From Aeriscardovia aeriphila (lineage in GTDB: Bacteria > Actinomycetota > Actinomycetes > Actinomycetales > Bifidobacteriaceae): a stretch of DNA of 64,000 nt. The position numbers were made by a program, and so were the translations under genes. The notes below the pieces were generated by a model that was given only the letters and a program-made list of their open reading frames with translations, was not told the origin of the DNA and ran no database searches. Positions 52,429 to 58,625 of the stretch are shown one piece after another (position 1 is the first letter of the stretch; each line of letters begins with the position of its first letter). The stretch is from contig NZ_MWWU01000002.1 in assembly GCF_002259595.1 (NCBI RefSeq), positions 496,001 through 560,000 of the forward strand, read 5' to 3'.

Positions 52429-53553
52429 TCATAATTGACTGGAGAAAGCCTGAGAAGCGAATTCCTGAGCTGCCACACTCGTATCCTTAGCAACAGCATT
52501 ACCCGCCACCAGATTGGCAATAATATTCGTCAACTGAGGCGAATAATCATCCGGCAGGGACACACCGTATGTCACTACACCCTCGTGTGTCGACTTGTCT
52601 AACCACGATTTCTGCCCCAGCGCAACAATGGCGACATTCCAGCCTTGCTCACCTGAAGCAGAGAGCGTGGAATCCTTTTTCATCGCCTCGCGTGCTGAAC
52701 CGACAATGCTCACGCCTAAACTCGTCAACGCCTTGAGGGTGCGTTGGGCAGCTACCGTATTCGTCGCAAAAATGACGTGAGGAAGCTCACCTTGCTCAGC
52801 AAGTTTCTCCCACGAATCACGAAAAGCAGATAAGGCTTCATCAGGATCTTGGCCAACAACCGCTTGATCAACACTGGCAAAAAACCTGCTTCCCACATCT
52901 TCCCAACCGTTGAAAGCATCACGATCAGTGGTCGAGCCCAAGAAGGAGCTCACCACTAAAGTTCTCGGAGCTGACAAGGCTTCAAAGCTTTCATCCTCAT
53001 ATTCTCCGAGCTTGAGCGCACGAACAACAGCCTGAGCAGCCTTCGTACCTAGCTGGCGAGTATTCGCCCCCACGTAGGCCGAGTAACGGGAAGGACGGAT
53101 GCCGATGGGCTTGCGGTCGACGAACACCGCTTTCACTCCACCTGAAGTGATCGGCACGAGCAAATCCGTCCACGAATTGGAAAACTGGGGGTCGATGAGA
53201 AGAACATCCACTCCCTCGTTGGCGAAGCGGTTCATCGCTTCCAACTGCGGTTGCGGATTCAAGGAGAGTGATTTGAAGTAGCGAACGGTGTAACCAGCTT
53301 TGCGCAAACCGCGAATAGTGTTTGCTTCCATGGTGGCCGAACGTTCCCCTAACACGTCGCCCACACCTACATAGCCGATGGTGATAGCACGCGGGTTCGC
53401 AGGTGGGTTTACTTTCAGTGAAGAAGTCAGTGAATGAGACGTATTGTCAACGCTTCCACAGCCAGCAACAACCAGGCATGCGCAGCACAGAAAAGCCGCG
53501 CTGCAAGCTACACTCACAGCGCGTTCGACGCTTGCTGGCAATCTCTTAGCCAT
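52429..53553 (-). CDS. Sugar-type periplasmic-binding lipoprotein, solitary
   Basis: A 374-residue lipoprotein: signal peptide with lipobox LVVAGC (Cys32), then a type I periplasmic binding fold (ITIGYVGVGDVLGERSATMEANTIRGLRKAGYTVRYF, GVDVLLIDPQFSNSWTDLLVP, KAVFVDRKPIGIRPSRYSAYVG, HVIFATNTVAAQRTLKAL). This is the LacI/ribose-binding family, but no permease or ATPase gene is beside it; instead CtpE follows 12 bases downstream. The ligand is unknown. The ATG at 53553 has GAGG upstream. The 41-bp copy of the methyltransferase gene end lies 11 bases before the start, so this gene probably once followed that gene directly. Confidence 0.82.
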   Translation of the reverse strand: MAKRLPASVERAVSVACSAAFLCCACLVVAGCGSVDNTSHSLTSSLKVNPPANPRAITIGYVGVGDVLGERSATMEANTIRGLRKAGYTVRYFKSLSLNPQPQLEAMNRFANEGVDVLLIDPQFSNSWTDLLVPITSGGVKAVFVDRKPIGIRPSRYSAYVGANTRQLGTKAAQAVVRALKLGEYEDESFEALSAPRTLVVSSFLGSTTDRDAFNGWEDVGSRFFASVDQAVVGQDPDEALSAFRDSWEKLAEQGELPHVIFATNTVAAQRTLKALTSLGVSIVGSAREAMKKDSTLSASGEQGWNVAIVALGQKSWLDKSTHEGVVTYGVSLPDDYSPQLTNIIANLVAGNAVAKDTSVAAQEFASQAFSSQL

Positions 53554-53564
53554 GGCTTACCTCG

Positions 53565-53605
53565 TCAACTCATCGGCGGAAAACGGCGAATGTTTCCACA
53601 TGGAT
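53565..53605. repeat. att-like direct repeat, left copy
   Basis: These 41 bases match 57280-57320 at 37 positions. Read on the minus strand they encode the final residues HVETFAVFRR and stop of the TrmA/RlmD-type gene plus 10 bases after the stop. The intact gene ends HVETIAVFRR with the other copy. Three of the four differences are synonymous, as expected if one copy came with the element from a related gene. Confidence 0.88.
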
Positions 53606-53821
53606 TGAAACGAGCACCTGAATGTCTACATTTTCCGTCCGTACGCGGGAACTGCTCAAAGCCGAAAATCGGCGTTTTCACAGGTGCTCTCCGTTTGCGG
53701 AAACTTTTCCATGTGCTTTCTCTACCATATATATACGACAGGCATGAGGGAGGCCAGCGTCTCGACCTGATCACTTTTGTAACCGCCTTGCTAAGCCGTC
53801 TTCATTTTTCTTTTCGATAGT

Positions 53822-53858
53822 AAAAAATCTCCCCCTAGTAATCTAGAGGGAGATTTTT
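53822..53858 (-). terminator. Terminator of the island operon
   Basis: AAAAATCTCCC pairs with GGGAGATTTTT, with a further CCTAG/CTAG inner stem; T-runs in both directions. It lies 8 bases past the regulator stop. Confidence 0.93.
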
Positions 53859-53866
53859 CTTGGCTA

Positions 53867-54517
53867 TTACAAATCCTGCAGGCCATCTTCATCAAGGATT
53901 TTCACCTGCTTGCCTGTCCTTTTCACATAGCCCATTTTTTCAAGGAGTTTGAATTTGCGGGAGAGGGTTTCAGGAGTAGTTCCCAAGTAGAAGGCGATAT
54001 CTTTCATCTTCATGGACAGCTGGACCTGGTCGCTTCCAGCCACTTTAGCCAAGTCGAGCAGGTAGCTGGCCAGCCTTTCTTCGACCCGCTCCATGGCCAG
54101 GAACTGGGTCTGCCTTTCCGTGGCCAGCAGCTTCTGGGTGCTGAGTTCCAGCAGTTTGAGGGAGAGCTGGGGATTTTCTAGGAGAACCCGGTTGAAGTCG
54201 GCCTTGCTCAAGCTGCAGATTTCCGTATTCTCCATGGCCTCGCCGAAGAAGCTGTCATTTTCCAGACCAAAAAGCTGCTTTTCCCCTTCATAGTCACCCG
54301 GCTGGGCAACCCGGAGCAGCTGCTCGCGGCCGCTGGAGGTCAGCTGGTAAACCTTCATGTTTCCCCGGGCCACGATCTGCAGCTTTTCATCCCCTGGTTG
54401 AAAAATCGTCTCACCTTTTTGATAGTGCCGGTGGATGGCCAGGGAATTGATCTTAAGCTGGTCTTTTTCTGGCAGGTCCATGAATAAGGGAACCAGGCTG
54501 ACACATGTATGCTGCAC
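53867..54517 (-). CDS. Crp/Fnr-family transcription regulator
   Basis: A 216-residue regulator with an N-terminal cyclic-nucleotide-binding-like beta domain (about 10-120; KGETIFQPGDEKLQIVARGNMKVYQL, LRVAQPGDYEGEKQLFG) and a C-terminal helix-turn-helix (about 160-200; MKDIAFYLGTTPETLSRKFKLLEKMGYV). The recognition helix has E-x2-S-R, the pattern that reads TTGAT-N4-ATCAA half sites in FNR. Only one N-terminal Cys (Cys5) is seen, so a full FNR-type iron-sulfur cluster is unlikely; a thiol or other signal is possible. GTG start at 54517 after GGGGAG. It is the last gene of the island operon and probably controls it. Confidence 0.88.
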   Translation of the reverse strand: MQHTCVSLVPLFMDLPEKDQLKINSLAIHRHYQKGETIFQPGDEKLQIVARGNMKVYQLTSSGREQLLRVAQPGDYEGEKQLFGLENDSFFGEAMENTEICSLSKADFNRVLLENPQLSLKLLELSTQKLLATERQTQFLAMERVEERLASYLLDLAKVAGSDQVQLSMKMKDIAFYLGTTPETLSRKFKLLEKMGYVKRTGKQVKILDEDGLQDL

Positions 54518-54541
54518 TTTGCTCTCCCCTGCTGGTAAAAA

Positions 54542-54823
54542 TTAGCCCAAGACCAAGTGGTCGAATTCTTCCAGGGTCTGATAGGTCTTAGTCATCGCCC
54601 CGCAGGCATCGGCCGGAATGGCGTAATCCGCGGTCAAGGACCGCAGCTTGCTGAAGTCGGCTGTCAAGTCTTCCTGGCCGGCTTTCATCTTCTTTTGGAT
54701 GTCTTCATAAACCTTGCGGACTTCAAAGACTTCCGGGTGATGGGAGCCGTGGGCCTTGGTAATTGCCTTCGTGTATAAGTCTAACATTTCATCGTTCTTG
54801 GTAAAAAATTCCTTGATCATCAT
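54542..54823 (-). CDS. Small His-containing protein of unknown function
   Basis: A 93-residue, mostly helical protein that I do not recognise with certainty. Features: MMIKEFFTKNDEMLDLYTKAI, then His25, His28 and His29 in KAHGSHHPEVFEV, a Lys-rich helix VRKVYEDIQKKMKAGQEDL, and a single Cys near 75. The His cluster and its place between a heavy-metal chaperone and a Crp/Fnr regulator suggest a metal or redox role, but this is inference. AAGGAG lies 3 bases before the first ATG; a second ATG follows directly. Same operon as its neighbours. Confidence 0.75.
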   Translation of the reverse strand: MMIKEFFTKNDEMLDLYTKAITKAHGSHHPEVFEVRKVYEDIQKKMKAGQEDLTADFSKLRSLTADYAIPADACGAMTKTYQTLEEFDHLVLG

Positions 54824-54873
54824 TTTTCTCCTTTTTGCTTGATTAGTCGTTTTTCTTGTTTTTGCTTTTTCTC

Positions 54874-55101
54874 TTATTTAGCGCTGGCCTTCAAGACGTC
54901 ATAGCCGATATTCTTCACGGCTTGAGTGATCGTGTCCACATTGGTTTTTTCCGGATCGAAGTTGGCCTTGGCCTTGCTTGCGTTGAAGAGAACCTTGACG
55001 CTGGTCTTTTCAACCCCGTCGACATTGGCGATGGCTCCCGCGATCTTCTGCATGCAGGTCGGGCAGGCCAATGTTTCAAGTTGTAAAATTGCTTTTTGCA
55101 T
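54874..55101 (-). CDS. Heavy-metal-associated (HMA) chaperone, CopZ-like
   Basis: A 75-residue single HMA domain with a ferredoxin-like fold. The metal-binding pair is Cys13 and Cys16 in TLACPTCMQKIAGAI; the commoner motif is MxCxxC, here LACPTC without the Met. VDGVEKTSVKVLFNASKAKANFDPEKTNVDTITQAVKNIGYDV completes the domain. It would hand a soft metal ion to the ATPase encoded 21 bases upstream, which lacks its own HMA domain. AAAGGA precedes the ATG at 55101. Confidence 0.9.
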   Translation of the reverse strand: MQKAILQLETLACPTCMQKIAGAIANVDGVEKTSVKVLFNASKAKANFDPEKTNVDTITQAVKNIGYDVLKASAK

Positions 55102-55122
55102 GATTTCTTGTCCTTTCTTTTT

Positions 55123-57051
55123 CTATTGGATGCTTTCGATGCCCTTAGTATACGGGCCTGCTGCTTGCGAAAAATTGTTTTCTATCAACTTTCGCGATTT
55201 TTGTAATTTTGACCGGTATGCCAGAAGGCGCATGGCGTTTAAGATTACAATCAGGATGCTGCCTTCGTGAACGAACATCCCGATGGCCATGTTCATCCAT
55301 GAGCTGGCTAACACGCTGACCAGCAGGACTGCTACGACAGCCAGGGCAATGGTGATGTTCTCAATCATGTTCCGCCGGGTGGCCTTAGCCAGGGCCAGGG
55401 ACCGCGGAATCCGGTCAAAGCTGCCGTTCATGAGGACCACGTTTGAAGTCTCAATTGCCACGTCAGTCCCGCTGCCCATAGCAATCCCGATGTCTGCCCG
55501 GGCCAGTGACGGACTGTCGTTGATCCCGTCGCCGACAAAGGCCACGATTTCACCGGCTGCCTGCCGCTTTTTGACAAATTCGGCCTTGTCTTCTGGCAAA
55601 AGCTGACCATATGCCTCAGTGAGGCCCAGTTCCTCCGCTACCAGGTCTACCGTCTTCTGGTTGTCCCCGGACAAGAGGAGCAGGTTCTTGACGCCCAGCT
55701 TCTTTAAAGCAGCCAGGTCCTCCTTGACCCCGGCCCGGATCTCATCCTTTAAGCCTAAAGCAAGTTCCAGCTGGCCGTTAACAGCCACCAGAACCAGGGA
55801 ATTACCAGCACTTGCCAGCTCTTCCATGTCCCTTTCCATTTCTTTTGTGACTGGGACATGGTACTGGTCAAGCAGGTGGCGGTTGCCAACCAGGACCTGC
55901 TGGCCAGCTACTTGAGCAACGATCCCGCCGCCCTGAAGGACCTGGGAAGCTTCAACTTCTTTGGCTTCCAGGTCTTCATAATAGCCAGTGATGGCTTTCG
56001 CCAAAGGGTGGGCAGATTCATTTTCCACGCTGACCAGAAGCTGTTCAGCCAGCTGGCCCTGGCCGTACTTTTTTATCTGGCTGACCCGCGGGTCTCCGTA
56101 AGTCAGGGTCCCGGTCTTGTCGAACATGATCGTGTCGACCTTGCTGAACTTGGTGATAACTTCGCTGCCTTTAAAAAGGATCCCTTGCTTGGCCCCATTG
56201 CCGATTCCGGCCACGTTGGAGACTGGAACCCCGATAACCAAGGCACCCGGGCAGCCGAGAACCAGGATGGTTACAGCCAGCTCCAGTTTTTGGCTGATGA
56301 GGCCAACAATAATGGCCAGGAGCAGGACGACCGGGGTGTAGTACTTGGAGAAGCGGTCAATGAGACGCTCAGCCTGGGACTTGGAGTCCTGGGCTTCTTC
56401 GACCAGTTCGATGATCTTGCCAAAAGTCGTCTCATCCCCGACTTTTTCCGCCTTGATCCGGATGGTCCCGTTTTCCAAAATAGTACCGGCATAGACCGAG
56501 TCGCCGGGCTTTTTGCCTAAAGGCATGGATTCACCGGTAATGCTGGCTTCGTTGGCCGTCCCGGAACCGGAGACGACTTCCCCGTCAACCGGGATCTTGC
56601 CGCCGGTCTTGACCAAAAGGATGTCCCCTTCGTCTAGGTCGTCTATGTCAACTTCTTCAAAGTCGCCGTCTGCCTTCTGCCGGAGGGCGGTTTCTGGCGC
56701 CATCTCCACCAGTTCCTTGATGGCTGACCGGGTCTTGGCCAGAGTCTTTTGTTCAAGGTAAGCCCCAAACAAAAAGAGGAAGGCCACGATGGCGGATTCT
56801 TCGAATTCCCGGATGACGAAGGCGCCTAAGATGGCCAGGGTCACCAGCAAGTCGATACTGATGACTTTGACTTTCAGGGCCTGCCAAGCGGATGCGGCGA
56901 TCGGGAAGCCACCGATGAGGGAGGCGGCCAGGAGTAGTCCGGACTCTGCTGTTTCACTTTTAAAGAACCATTTTGCGGCAAAGGCCAGGACGATTAAGAT
57001 GCCCGTAGCAGCCGTCAGCCGGTTGCGATTTTTCATTAACCATTTTTGCAT
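55123..57051 (-). CDS. P1B-type heavy-metal ATPase with CPG motif
   Basis: Membrane pump for a transition metal; 642 residues, no N-terminal metal domain. The membrane metal site is Cys267-Pro-Gly in LVLGCPGALVIGVPVSN, where CPC, CPH or SPC are usual. Other motifs: EASITGESMPLGK, phosphorylated Asp311 in FDKTGTLTYGD, the P1B-specific SAHPLAKAI, and VGDGINDSPSLARADIGIAMGSGTDVA. Helix pairs lie at about 12-55 and 65-110, and again at 240-290 and near the C-terminus. Metal specificity cannot be stated from the sequence. The ATG at 57051 has AAGGAGG 11 bases upstream. First gene of the island operon. Confidence 0.92.
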   Translation of the reverse strand: MQKWLMKNRNRLTAATGILIVLAFAAKWFFKSETAESGLLLAASLIGGFPIAASAWQALKVKVISIDLLVTLAILGAFVIREFEESAIVAFLFLFGAYLEQKTLAKTRSAIKELVEMAPETALRQKADGDFEEVDIDDLDEGDILLVKTGGKIPVDGEVVSGSGTANEASITGESMPLGKKPGDSVYAGTILENGTIRIKAEKVGDETTFGKIIELVEEAQDSKSQAERLIDRFSKYYTPVVLLLAIIVGLISQKLELAVTILVLGCPGALVIGVPVSNVAGIGNGAKQGILFKGSEVITKFSKVDTIMFDKTGTLTYGDPRVSQIKKYGQGQLAEQLLVSVENESAHPLAKAITGYYEDLEAKEVEASQVLQGGGIVAQVAGQQVLVGNRHLLDQYHVPVTKEMERDMEELASAGNSLVLVAVNGQLELALGLKDEIRAGVKEDLAALKKLGVKNLLLLSGDNQKTVDLVAEELGLTEAYGQLLPEDKAEFVKKRQAAGEIVAFVGDGINDSPSLARADIGIAMGSGTDVAIETSNVVLMNGSFDRIPRSLALAKATRRNMIENITIALAVVAVLLVSVLASSWMNMAIGMFVHEGSILIVILNAMRLLAYRSKLQKSRKLIENNFSQAAGPYTKGIESIQ

Positions 57052-57083
57052 TGATCTTTTGACCTCCTTGCTGTGAGGCTTTT

Positions 57084-57125
57084 AATATACCGGGAAAACG
57101 AAATTCCCCCATTGATTTCCATCAA
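57084..57125 (-). promoter_or_regulatory. Island operon promoter with a perfect FNR-type box
   Basis: TTGATTTCCATCAA (57112-57125) matches the FNR consensus TTGAT-N4-ATCAA exactly. On the minus strand a TATATT -10 lies at 57084-57089, so the expected start is near 57077 and the box is centred about 41.5 bases upstream, the class II activator position. No good -35 is needed in that arrangement. The operon's last gene encodes a regulator of the matching family. Confidence 0.85.
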
Positions 57126-57150
57126 GATCGGGAGTTTTGCAAAAACTGTT

Positions 57151-57279
57151 GTACGAAAATTTGTGTACGAAAAAAGCCATCCAGGGGAAATTGATCCTCT
57201 GAATGGCTTAGTTTTAGTCGACGCGCTATTTGGTCATAAACTGAGTCGCTTAGTTGGCCGGTTGACCGACTAAGTTATT
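57151..57279. other. Right end of the island: hairpin and repeats
   Basis: GTACGAAAA occurs twice (57151-57159, 57165-57173). A hairpin AAGCCAT...ATGGCTT (57174-57209) has a T-run on the minus strand and would end transcripts coming from the methyltransferase gene. An imperfect inverted repeat CTTAGT...ACTAAG (57249-57274) lies 5 bases inside the att-like repeat and could bind a recombinase or excisionase. Confidence 0.6.
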
Positions 57280-57320
57280 CTTTCGTCAACTCAGCGGCGA
57301 AAAACAGCGATTGTTTCCAC
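57280..57320. repeat. att-like direct repeat, right copy
   Basis: Partner of 53565-53605 (37 of 41 positions). This copy forms the in-frame end of the methyltransferase gene. The longest identical run is the 13 bases TGTTTCCACATGG, a candidate crossover core. Confidence 0.88.
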
Positions 57321-58625
57321 ATGGTGAGTCATCGGATAAATATCATAAGCTTGCAGATCCACAGGATCATAGCCATCAGCAATGAACGTTGTCATATCGC
57401 GTGCCAAAGAAGTTGGATCGCAGGCCACATAAATCACCACATCAGGGTGAGCTGCAGTGATCTGGTGGACGACCTGAGCCTTCGCACCAGCGCGCGGAGG
57501 GTCAAGAACCACCAAATTCGGGTGCAAGAACCGCTCCGGAATGGAACGTAGCGCACGGTTCACCATACCCTGACGAGCCTGAGCCGCCTCCAAGCCCGCG
57601 TGACGCAAGTTCTTCCTCGCCGAACGCACAGCAACAGGGCTTCCCTCAACGCTAAACAAGCCGTTACCGCCCTTGCCGGCCAGCAAGCCCAGCGCCACGG
57701 TGAACAGGCCCGAGCCAGAATAGAGATCCCAAATCGTGTGCGGTGCAGAAGTAAGCTCGTTCTGAGCCGCCTGCAAAACTGCGTTCACCAGCGTCGACGG
57801 CGCCTGACGGTGAACCTGCCAGAAGCCATCTGCCGCCACCGAGTAGCTCAGCGTGCGTTTGGTCGAGCCGATTTGAACCTCAGGAACGGTTTCGGTAAGC
57901 GTGGAGCGGCCCGCCACTAGCTTGTCGTTAACGATGAGGGCGAAATTATCCTCACGCTTGTCGCTCCCATGCAAGGCAGGAACAGCAAGGCGGATGCTCG
58001 CATTCGGCTCAAAACCGCCCTTCCACACGCCCTCTTGAGTGGCGATACCGTTAAGCTCCTGGGTGGCCAAAGGCATGTCGTCAATGGCGAGGCGCTCGTG
58101 CGAACCACGCTGATGCATGGACGGACGGCCTGCTTCATCAGCGACCATCTCGATGCGCGTCCTCCAATGAAGGCCGCCGCGCTGCTCGTCGCTGGCAACC
58201 GCGTGCAGCTCGACGTCGCTATCCACATTGGCGAGGCGGTCCATCTGCTCGTCAATCAGCGTCTTTTTCCACAGATGTTGGCCCTCAAGATTGACATGGA
58301 CCAAGTCGGCGCCTCCGACGCCGCCACCCATGGAAACTGGCCCGGCCGCTGGCCACGCCGGGCTTACGCGGTACGGGCTCGCCTCGAGGACTTCGACAAC
58401 CTCACCCGTCCAAAAACGATCCTTGCGCTCTGCTCCCGGGTCAAGGCTAATGCGCACGCGCTCGCCAGGCAGAGCGAAGCGCACAAAGACGACGCGGCCG
58501 TCGACGTGAGCGATGCATCGGCCCTGATCAGCGAACCTCTCGATAGTAACCTCAAGGGTTTGCGCAGTGTCGACTGCGTTGGTGTGAGGAGAGTTCAAGC
58601 TGGACTGTACAGCTTCTGATGTCAT
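57291..58625 (-). CDS. TrmA/RlmD-type RNA uracil-C5 methyltransferase
   Basis: SAM-dependent methyltransferase of tRNA or 23S rRNA uridines; 444 residues. An N-terminal TRAM domain (about 22-80; LEVTIERFADQGRCIAHVDGRVVFVRFALPGE) is followed by the central domain and the methyltransferase core with SAM loop IWDLYSGSGLFTVALGLL (about 300), LVVLDPPRAGAK, and catalytic Cys402 in VIYVACDPTSLARDM. The N-terminal Fe-S cysteines of RlmD are not evident. The C-terminal HHVETIAVFRR is the site of island integration, yet the reading frame stays complete. The ATG start at 58625 is 30 bases downstream of the DUF3159 stop. Confidence 0.9.
   Translation of the reverse strand: MTSEAVQSSLNSPHTNAVDTAQTLEVTIERFADQGRCIAHVDGRVVFVRFALPGERVRISLDPGAERKDRFWTGEVVEVLEASPYRVSPAWPAAGPVSMGGGVGGADLVHVNLEGQHLWKKTLIDEQMDRLANVDSDVELHAVASDEQRGGLHWRTRIEMVADEAGRPSMHQRGSHERLAIDDMPLATQELNGIATQEGVWKGGFEPNASIRLAVPALHGSDKREDNFALIVNDKLVAGRSTLTETVPEVQIGSTKRTLSYSVAADGFWQVHRQAPSTLVNAVLQAAQNELTSAPHTIWDLYSGSGLFTVALGLLAGKGGNGLFSVEGSPVAVRSARKNLRHAGLEAAQARQGMVNRALRSIPERFLHPNLVVLDPPRAGAKAQVVHQITAAHPDVVIYVACDPTSLARDMTTFIADGYDPVDLQAYDIYPMTHHVETIAVFRR

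Follow-up and report, generated by a model that had tools for sequence, protein, structure and literature searches.

The question raised by this locus is how a small island of metal-related genes, with no integrase inside it, came to lie at the 3' end of a methyltransferase gene. The window is a 64,000-nucleotide stretch of the Aeriscardovia aeriphila genome (here G000). The island spans about 3.7 kb and has four genes, all on the minus strand, between two copies of a direct repeat. Coordinates are collected in Table 1. The neighbouring rlmD/trmA-type methyltransferase gene is intact, and its product has the C-terminal end HHVETIAVFRR*.

Table 1. Features of the island and its flanks, in window coordinates.
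Feature	Position	Strand	Basis
rlmD/trmA-type 23S rRNA uracil methyltransferase gene, 444 aa; target gene	57291..58625	-	TRAM and tRNA_U5-meth_tr domains, RlmD models
Right repeat copy; native-like gene end, attL-like in the gene direction	57283..57324	-	38/42 to left copy
Core CATGTGGAAACAAT within right repeat copy	57310-57323	-	
L. delbrueckii rlmD end (TGACGAAAGAATAA) and 3' flank; flank shorter here than in G002	57239..57288	-	
Heavy-metal P1B-type ATPase, 642 aa	55123..57051	-	TIGR01525, 548.7 bits (cut-off 346)
CopZ-like heavy-metal-associated domain protein, 75 aa	54874..55101	-	PF00403, 37.9 bits
RIC-like protein, 93 aa; resembles C-terminal part of RIC/ScdA di-iron repair proteins	54542..54823	-	TIGR03652, E 3.1e-10, under its cut-off
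Crp/Fnr-type regulator, 216 aa	53867..54517	-	PF13545 and PF00027
Terminator-like hairpin 3' of Crp/Fnr gene	53823..53858	-	16-nt inverted repeat, 94% complementary, 4-nt loop
Internal core-like site CAGGTCGAGACGCTGGCC; end of Lactobacillus-type DNA	53752..53769	-	End-module alignment
Gene-free end module, ~167 bp, microCIME-like	53603..53769	-	Conserved in 10 aligned copies
End-module inverted repeat GAGCACCTG / CAGGTGCTC	53681-53689 / 53612-53620	-	
Left repeat copy; stranded original gene end, attR-like; core at 53589-53602	53562..53603	-	
Binding-protein (lipoprotein) gene; normal downstream neighbour of methyltransferase	52429..53553	-	PF13407; gene order in relatives

A repeat search of the window returned the direct repeat as 42 nt, with 38 identical positions and a spacing of 3721. 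By binomial estimate, the chance of such a match is of the order of 1e-18 per comparison. The first-pass annotation had given the pair as 53565-53605 and 57280-57320, identical at 37 of 41 positions. While the repeat is real, those right-hand coordinates were about 6 bp off register relative to the left. Of the four differences within coding sequence, all but one (ATC/TTC) are synonymous, in agreement with the first-pass annotation. In the nearest relative, a second Aeriscardovia genome (G002) with a 98% identical methyltransferase, the copies differ at 3 positions only. Since the left copy there still reads ATC, the change to TTC arose in the dead left copy of G000. This non-synonymous difference is drift and gives no sign of another host. 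Note that the left copy is a second rlmD end, 16 nt ahead of the binding-protein gene start on the minus strand. Before insertion, that gene would have begun 16 nt past the methyltransferase stop, and not 27 bases as previously calculated. Relatives have the order methyltransferase, binding-protein region, second ATPase. The insertion site is the HHVETV segment of rlmD/rumA.

Comparison with island-free relatives, proposed earlier as a check, uncovered empty sites both within the genus and among the sisters of Bifidobacterium pseudolongum, and confirms insertion at the methyltransferase 3' end. The island is missing from G001 and G003, which represent two further species of the genus. In both, the second P-type ATPase gene starts 1.2-1.3 kb past the methyltransferase stop. 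We also measured this distance in 58 family genomes (L136-L193), picked without regard to their rlmD gene end, and it is below 1.7 kb in 51. Hence, uninterrupted gene order is the usual state. For B. pseudolongum, two sister genomes have an empty site, with 85 nt identical to the remnant beyond its island, and the case for insertion in this species is complete. The same metal cargo lies at rlmD in B. pseudolongum, B. choerinum and Galliscardovia, and the gene is an insertion target in at least four genera. We regard the insertion, its site and its ends as established. The contrary picture sketched in the first-pass annotation, where all relatives are filled and no empty-site version exists, is not what we found. 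The base composition of the island, GC content included, is ordinary, and foreign composition was dropped as evidence of import. Linkage of integration to a tRNA was also rejected; the window has no tRNA.

By open reading frames and domain profiles, the island has neither an integrase gene nor any gene for a relaxase, a coupling protein or conjugation. This establishes the integrase-less interior and bears out the earlier statement that no recombinase gene lies inside. The only genes present are those for the ATPase, CopZ-like, RIC-like and Crp/Fnr proteins.

The cargo is closely related to DNA from another phylum. The ATPase shares 97% amino-acid identity with its counterparts in B. pseudolongum, Lactobacillus delbrueckii, Galliscardovia and a contig labelled Faecalicatena (L037). 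In L. delbrueckii, and likewise on L037, the metal cargo is downstream of rlmD too. Over the first 457 codons, comparison of the window ATPase with its counterparts gave dS values of 0.128 (L. delbrueckii), 0.090 (B. pseudolongum) and 0.107 (G002). For neighbouring host genes, values between G000 and G002 are 0.303-0.495. Similarly, the methyltransferase dS between B. pseudolongum and B. choerinum is 0.304, compared with 0.009 for the ATPase. The low dS of the cargo, relative to host genes, shows that it has moved recently and on more than one occasion, and we take recent transfer as established. The idea that the cargo is a fixed native part of L. delbrueckii was dropped; between L032 (L. delbrueckii) and L037, dS is 0.599 for rlmD and 0.096 for the ATPase, so that here as well the cargo is younger than the adjoining gene. 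In addition, rlmD was not found on the fetched L. pasteurii stretch that carries the cargo. We also rejected a plasmid origin for the cargo, since nearly all plasmid matches are only 60-80% identical. The Faecalicatena label itself deserves comment. In this record (JAEDAG010000001.1, titled Faecalicatena absiana), a 14-kb stretch was read, and the rlmD that it encodes is 92% identical to the L. delbrueckii one. The contig looks like Lactobacillus, and hence like a mislabelled or contaminated record.

Junction sequences provide a second mark of the donor. Just inside the right repeat is a foreign gene end, TGACGAAAGAATAACTTAGTCGG, which matches L. delbrueckii rlmD at its end and in the adjoining flank. 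The window reads GTTGACGAAAGAATAACTTAGTCGG directly inside the repeat, and the L. delbrueckii rlmD end reads GTGCTGACGAAAGAATAACTTAGTCGG. This end is 87% identical, over 53 nt, to L. delbrueckii (L032 4427-4479) and 88% identical to Galliscardovia (L033 5684-5734). G002 keeps a longer L. delbrueckii flank, including a Lactobacillus terminator. The repeat had been interpreted as a replacement gene end from another host. Instead, the repeat itself is native-like and the foreign rlmD end is just inside it. The cargo and adjoining gene end are best read as coming from the L. delbrueckii group, and this donor assignment we consider established from sequence comparison. On the right side of the window island, the native-like end meets Lactobacillus sequence at a shared TGACGA. 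This arrangement, with a native-like end ahead of Lactobacillus sequence, presumably reflects gene conversion or recombination after insertion. Galliscardovia has a cleaner joint, in which the end module and core CATGTTGAGACGGT are followed by the L. delbrueckii rlmD end and cargo. On the left, Lactobacillus-type DNA ends at AGTGATCAGG, and CAGGTCGAGACGCTGGCC follows. An uninterrupted version of this inner junction, AGTGATCAGGCCGAAGATAATGCC, is kept in B. pseudolongum. As a separate observation, the Galliscardovia metal ATPase gene (L033 6001-7857) has a premature stop, giving 618 rather than 642 amino acids.

Beyond the left inner junction is the gene-free end module. A nucleotide search detected this module in 9 of 189 family genomes, from 5 bifidobacterial genera, in 1 of 397 Lactobacillaceae genomes, and on one L. 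paracasei plasmid, which was the sole plasmid match. The right end of the arsenic cassette had no plasmid match. A phage origin was rejected, because the end module had no match in phage records and one exact end-module pattern had none in viral contigs. Cargo associated with the module is diverse. In genome G051, the module ends a cassette encoding an ArsP permease, an SBF-family transporter and a thioredoxin-like protein; a second unit in this genome carries malic-enzyme cargo, as does G007. In G057, it accompanies genes for GmrSD and type I restriction. Two parts of a GmrSD gene flank the metal cargo in B. choerinum. Arrays with multiple cores are found at rlmD in G057, G143, G008 and G101, and a 3.1-kb stretch (98% identity) shared by G101 and G079 is at different array positions. 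Arrays in relatives are delimited by the same core, and in other genera this core and the end module enclose cargo of unrelated kinds. Most commonly, the arrays that were read have no integrase. The end module and one type of right end show an apparent inverted-repeat similarity, which would suit an attP.

As argued previously, an island with no integrase depends on something else to move. A search of the host for an integrase acting at this site had also been suggested earlier. No match to PF07508 was found in G000 (genome about 84% complete); the tyrosine recombinases of the host were rejected as the enzyme, as they were not linked to the rlmD site. Profile searches also found no PF07508 serine integrase in G002, B. 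pseudolongum, B. choerinum or Galliscardovia. A motif and similarity scan found no tyrosine recombinase at the heads of the arrays read. Two genomes do have serine recombinase genes in their arrays. In G076, the gene has one stop codon, and its 3' end runs into the core and gene-end copy. In G101, the gene is in one array unit (L187 7188-8150). The G076 recombinase has no close relative in other family genomes and was rejected as the common enzyme; its region has no plasmid match. Searches of family genomes, plasmids, phages and Lactobacillaceae recovered no parent ICE with these ends. Because no PF07508 match and no close relatives of the G076 recombinase were found, we infer the class of recombinase, and either its action in trans or its later loss.

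Taken together, the island is probably a CIME. It would comprise metal cargo from the L. delbrueckii group and a microCIME-like module of about 167 bp, bounded by att-like rlmD copies and inserted by a recombinase encoded elsewhere. This site-specific enzyme, for which a rumA/rlmD-specific serine integrase from an ICE is the likeliest candidate, would insert a circular or composite molecule, in the order end module, core, donor rlmD end and cargo, at the rlmD core. The methyltransferase would retain a working end, with the original end stranded downstream. The native-like end could later have come to precede the Lactobacillus sequence through recombination or gene conversion at the TGACGA common to both. 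Note that, as it stands, this order is a mismatch with a single crossover at the core and counts against the CIME interpretation, as do the negative searches for the enzyme described above. A broader idea, which we hold tentatively and consider doubtful, is a cassette-capture system at rlmD common to Bifidobacteriaceae and Lactobacillaceae. The two-core gene-free module would take donor DNA adjoining rlmD, together with its gene end, and re-insert it at rlmD in another phylum, building reorderable integrase-free arrays.

The junctions raise an alternative explanation. An imported Lactobacillus fragment, carrying an rlmD end, could have been joined at TGACGA on the right and CAGGNCGA on the left by illegitimate or homology-facilitated recombination, with no site-specific recombinase acting on the cargo. 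Short shared sequences do occur at both inner junctions of the window, and the integrase is absent. However, copies of the rlmD core form the outer boundaries, the same module and core flank unrelated cargo elsewhere, and the same gene is targeted in at least four genera. Recombination of this sort is therefore unlikely. The serine recombinase genes at rlmD in G076 and G101, one of which is broken, would fit the decay of an ICE or IME. Here, a complete element with its own integrase would have entered rlmD of an Aeriscardovia ancestor, then lost its recombination and transfer genes in place. Yet the cargo is younger than the split between G000 and G002, which share the integrase-less structure, and such arrays are the usual kind among those read; we find in-place decay improbable. 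Lastly, the very high identity across phyla, and the status of G002 as a metagenome-assembled genome, could betray an assembly or binning artefact that joined Lactobacillus DNA to a bifidobacterial contig. This is very hard to credit, given that the same junctions appear in two separate assemblies, G000 and G002, whose islands diverge by about 5%, and that records of named Bifidobacterium and Galliscardovia strains carry the cargo at the same gene.

The CIME interpretation can be compared with known elements. CIMEs keep att sites and lack recombination and transfer genes, while microCIMEs are gene-free units of 130-220 bp (PMC7563491). The window island has a direct repeat with the rlmD core on both sides, att-like by sequence, and no recombination or conjugation genes. 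Its end module is gene-free with a core-like site each side. In Streptococcus salivarius, att-bounded cargo of 1.2-13 kb and the gene-free units similarly form tandem arrays at 3' gene ends, with metal genes among the cargo (PMC7563491). Those CIMEs were found next to ICEs or IMEs, in tandem, at rpmG, rpsI, fda and rplL (PMC7563491). Conversely, the window island is at rlmD, in Bifidobacteriaceae, with no adjoining ICE and with an rlmD end from the donor phylum on its cargo. Single serine integrases target rumA in streptococci, and their att lies within the integrase gene (PMC4701971). These ICEs resemble our case in targeting the 3' part of rumA/rlmD and exchanging the gene C-terminus, and the G076 recombinase resembles their integrases in having att inside its gene (PMC4701971). 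They differ in that the island has no integrase, relaxase or conjugation gene; a terminal integrase gene whose 3' portion holds att is seen only in G076. There is also a likeness to integron cassette arrays, in that tandem integrase-less units vary in position between genomes (the malic-enzyme unit in G007 and G051, the 3.1-kb stretch in G079 and G101). Unlike integrons, the core is the end of a protein-coding gene, and units often have multiple genes and a regulator.

We conclude that this kind of element is already known, and that its occurrence in this host family, the mark left by a donor of another phylum and an end module shared with other cassettes make the variant of interest. None of the papers in the collection searched reported rlmD insertion in Bifidobacterium. 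For bifidobacteria, rlmD stands out as a hotspot at which metal, arsenic, restriction and GmrSD genes insert, and searches keyed to integrases would miss such cargo inserts. These cargo-only inserts appear to move between two bacterial phyla without their own integrase. Because the donor rlmD end is still on the cargo, donor, site and recipient can be read from one sequence, which makes the island a legible trace of genes passing between Bacillota and Actinomycetota in the gut.

Further copies of the module and array differ in context. On plasmid pLPS-1 of Lacticaseibacillus paracasei (NZ_AP018393.1; L110 7418-10203), a GmrSD/DUF262 gene precedes the end module, which is interrupted by an IS3-type element. 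The plasmid stretch is 97% identical to a Lactobacillaceae genome stretch (L134) and 93% identical to a Bifidobacteriaceae array (L111). In L134 (5828-6029; genome G343), CAAGTGGTGACACTGGC takes the place of an rlmD end after the end module; this joint could reflect use of a secondary site within another gene. In the array after rlmD in G101 (L187, L226; C2 from 563650), a 200-300-bp repeat occurs several times, and every copy begins at the core.
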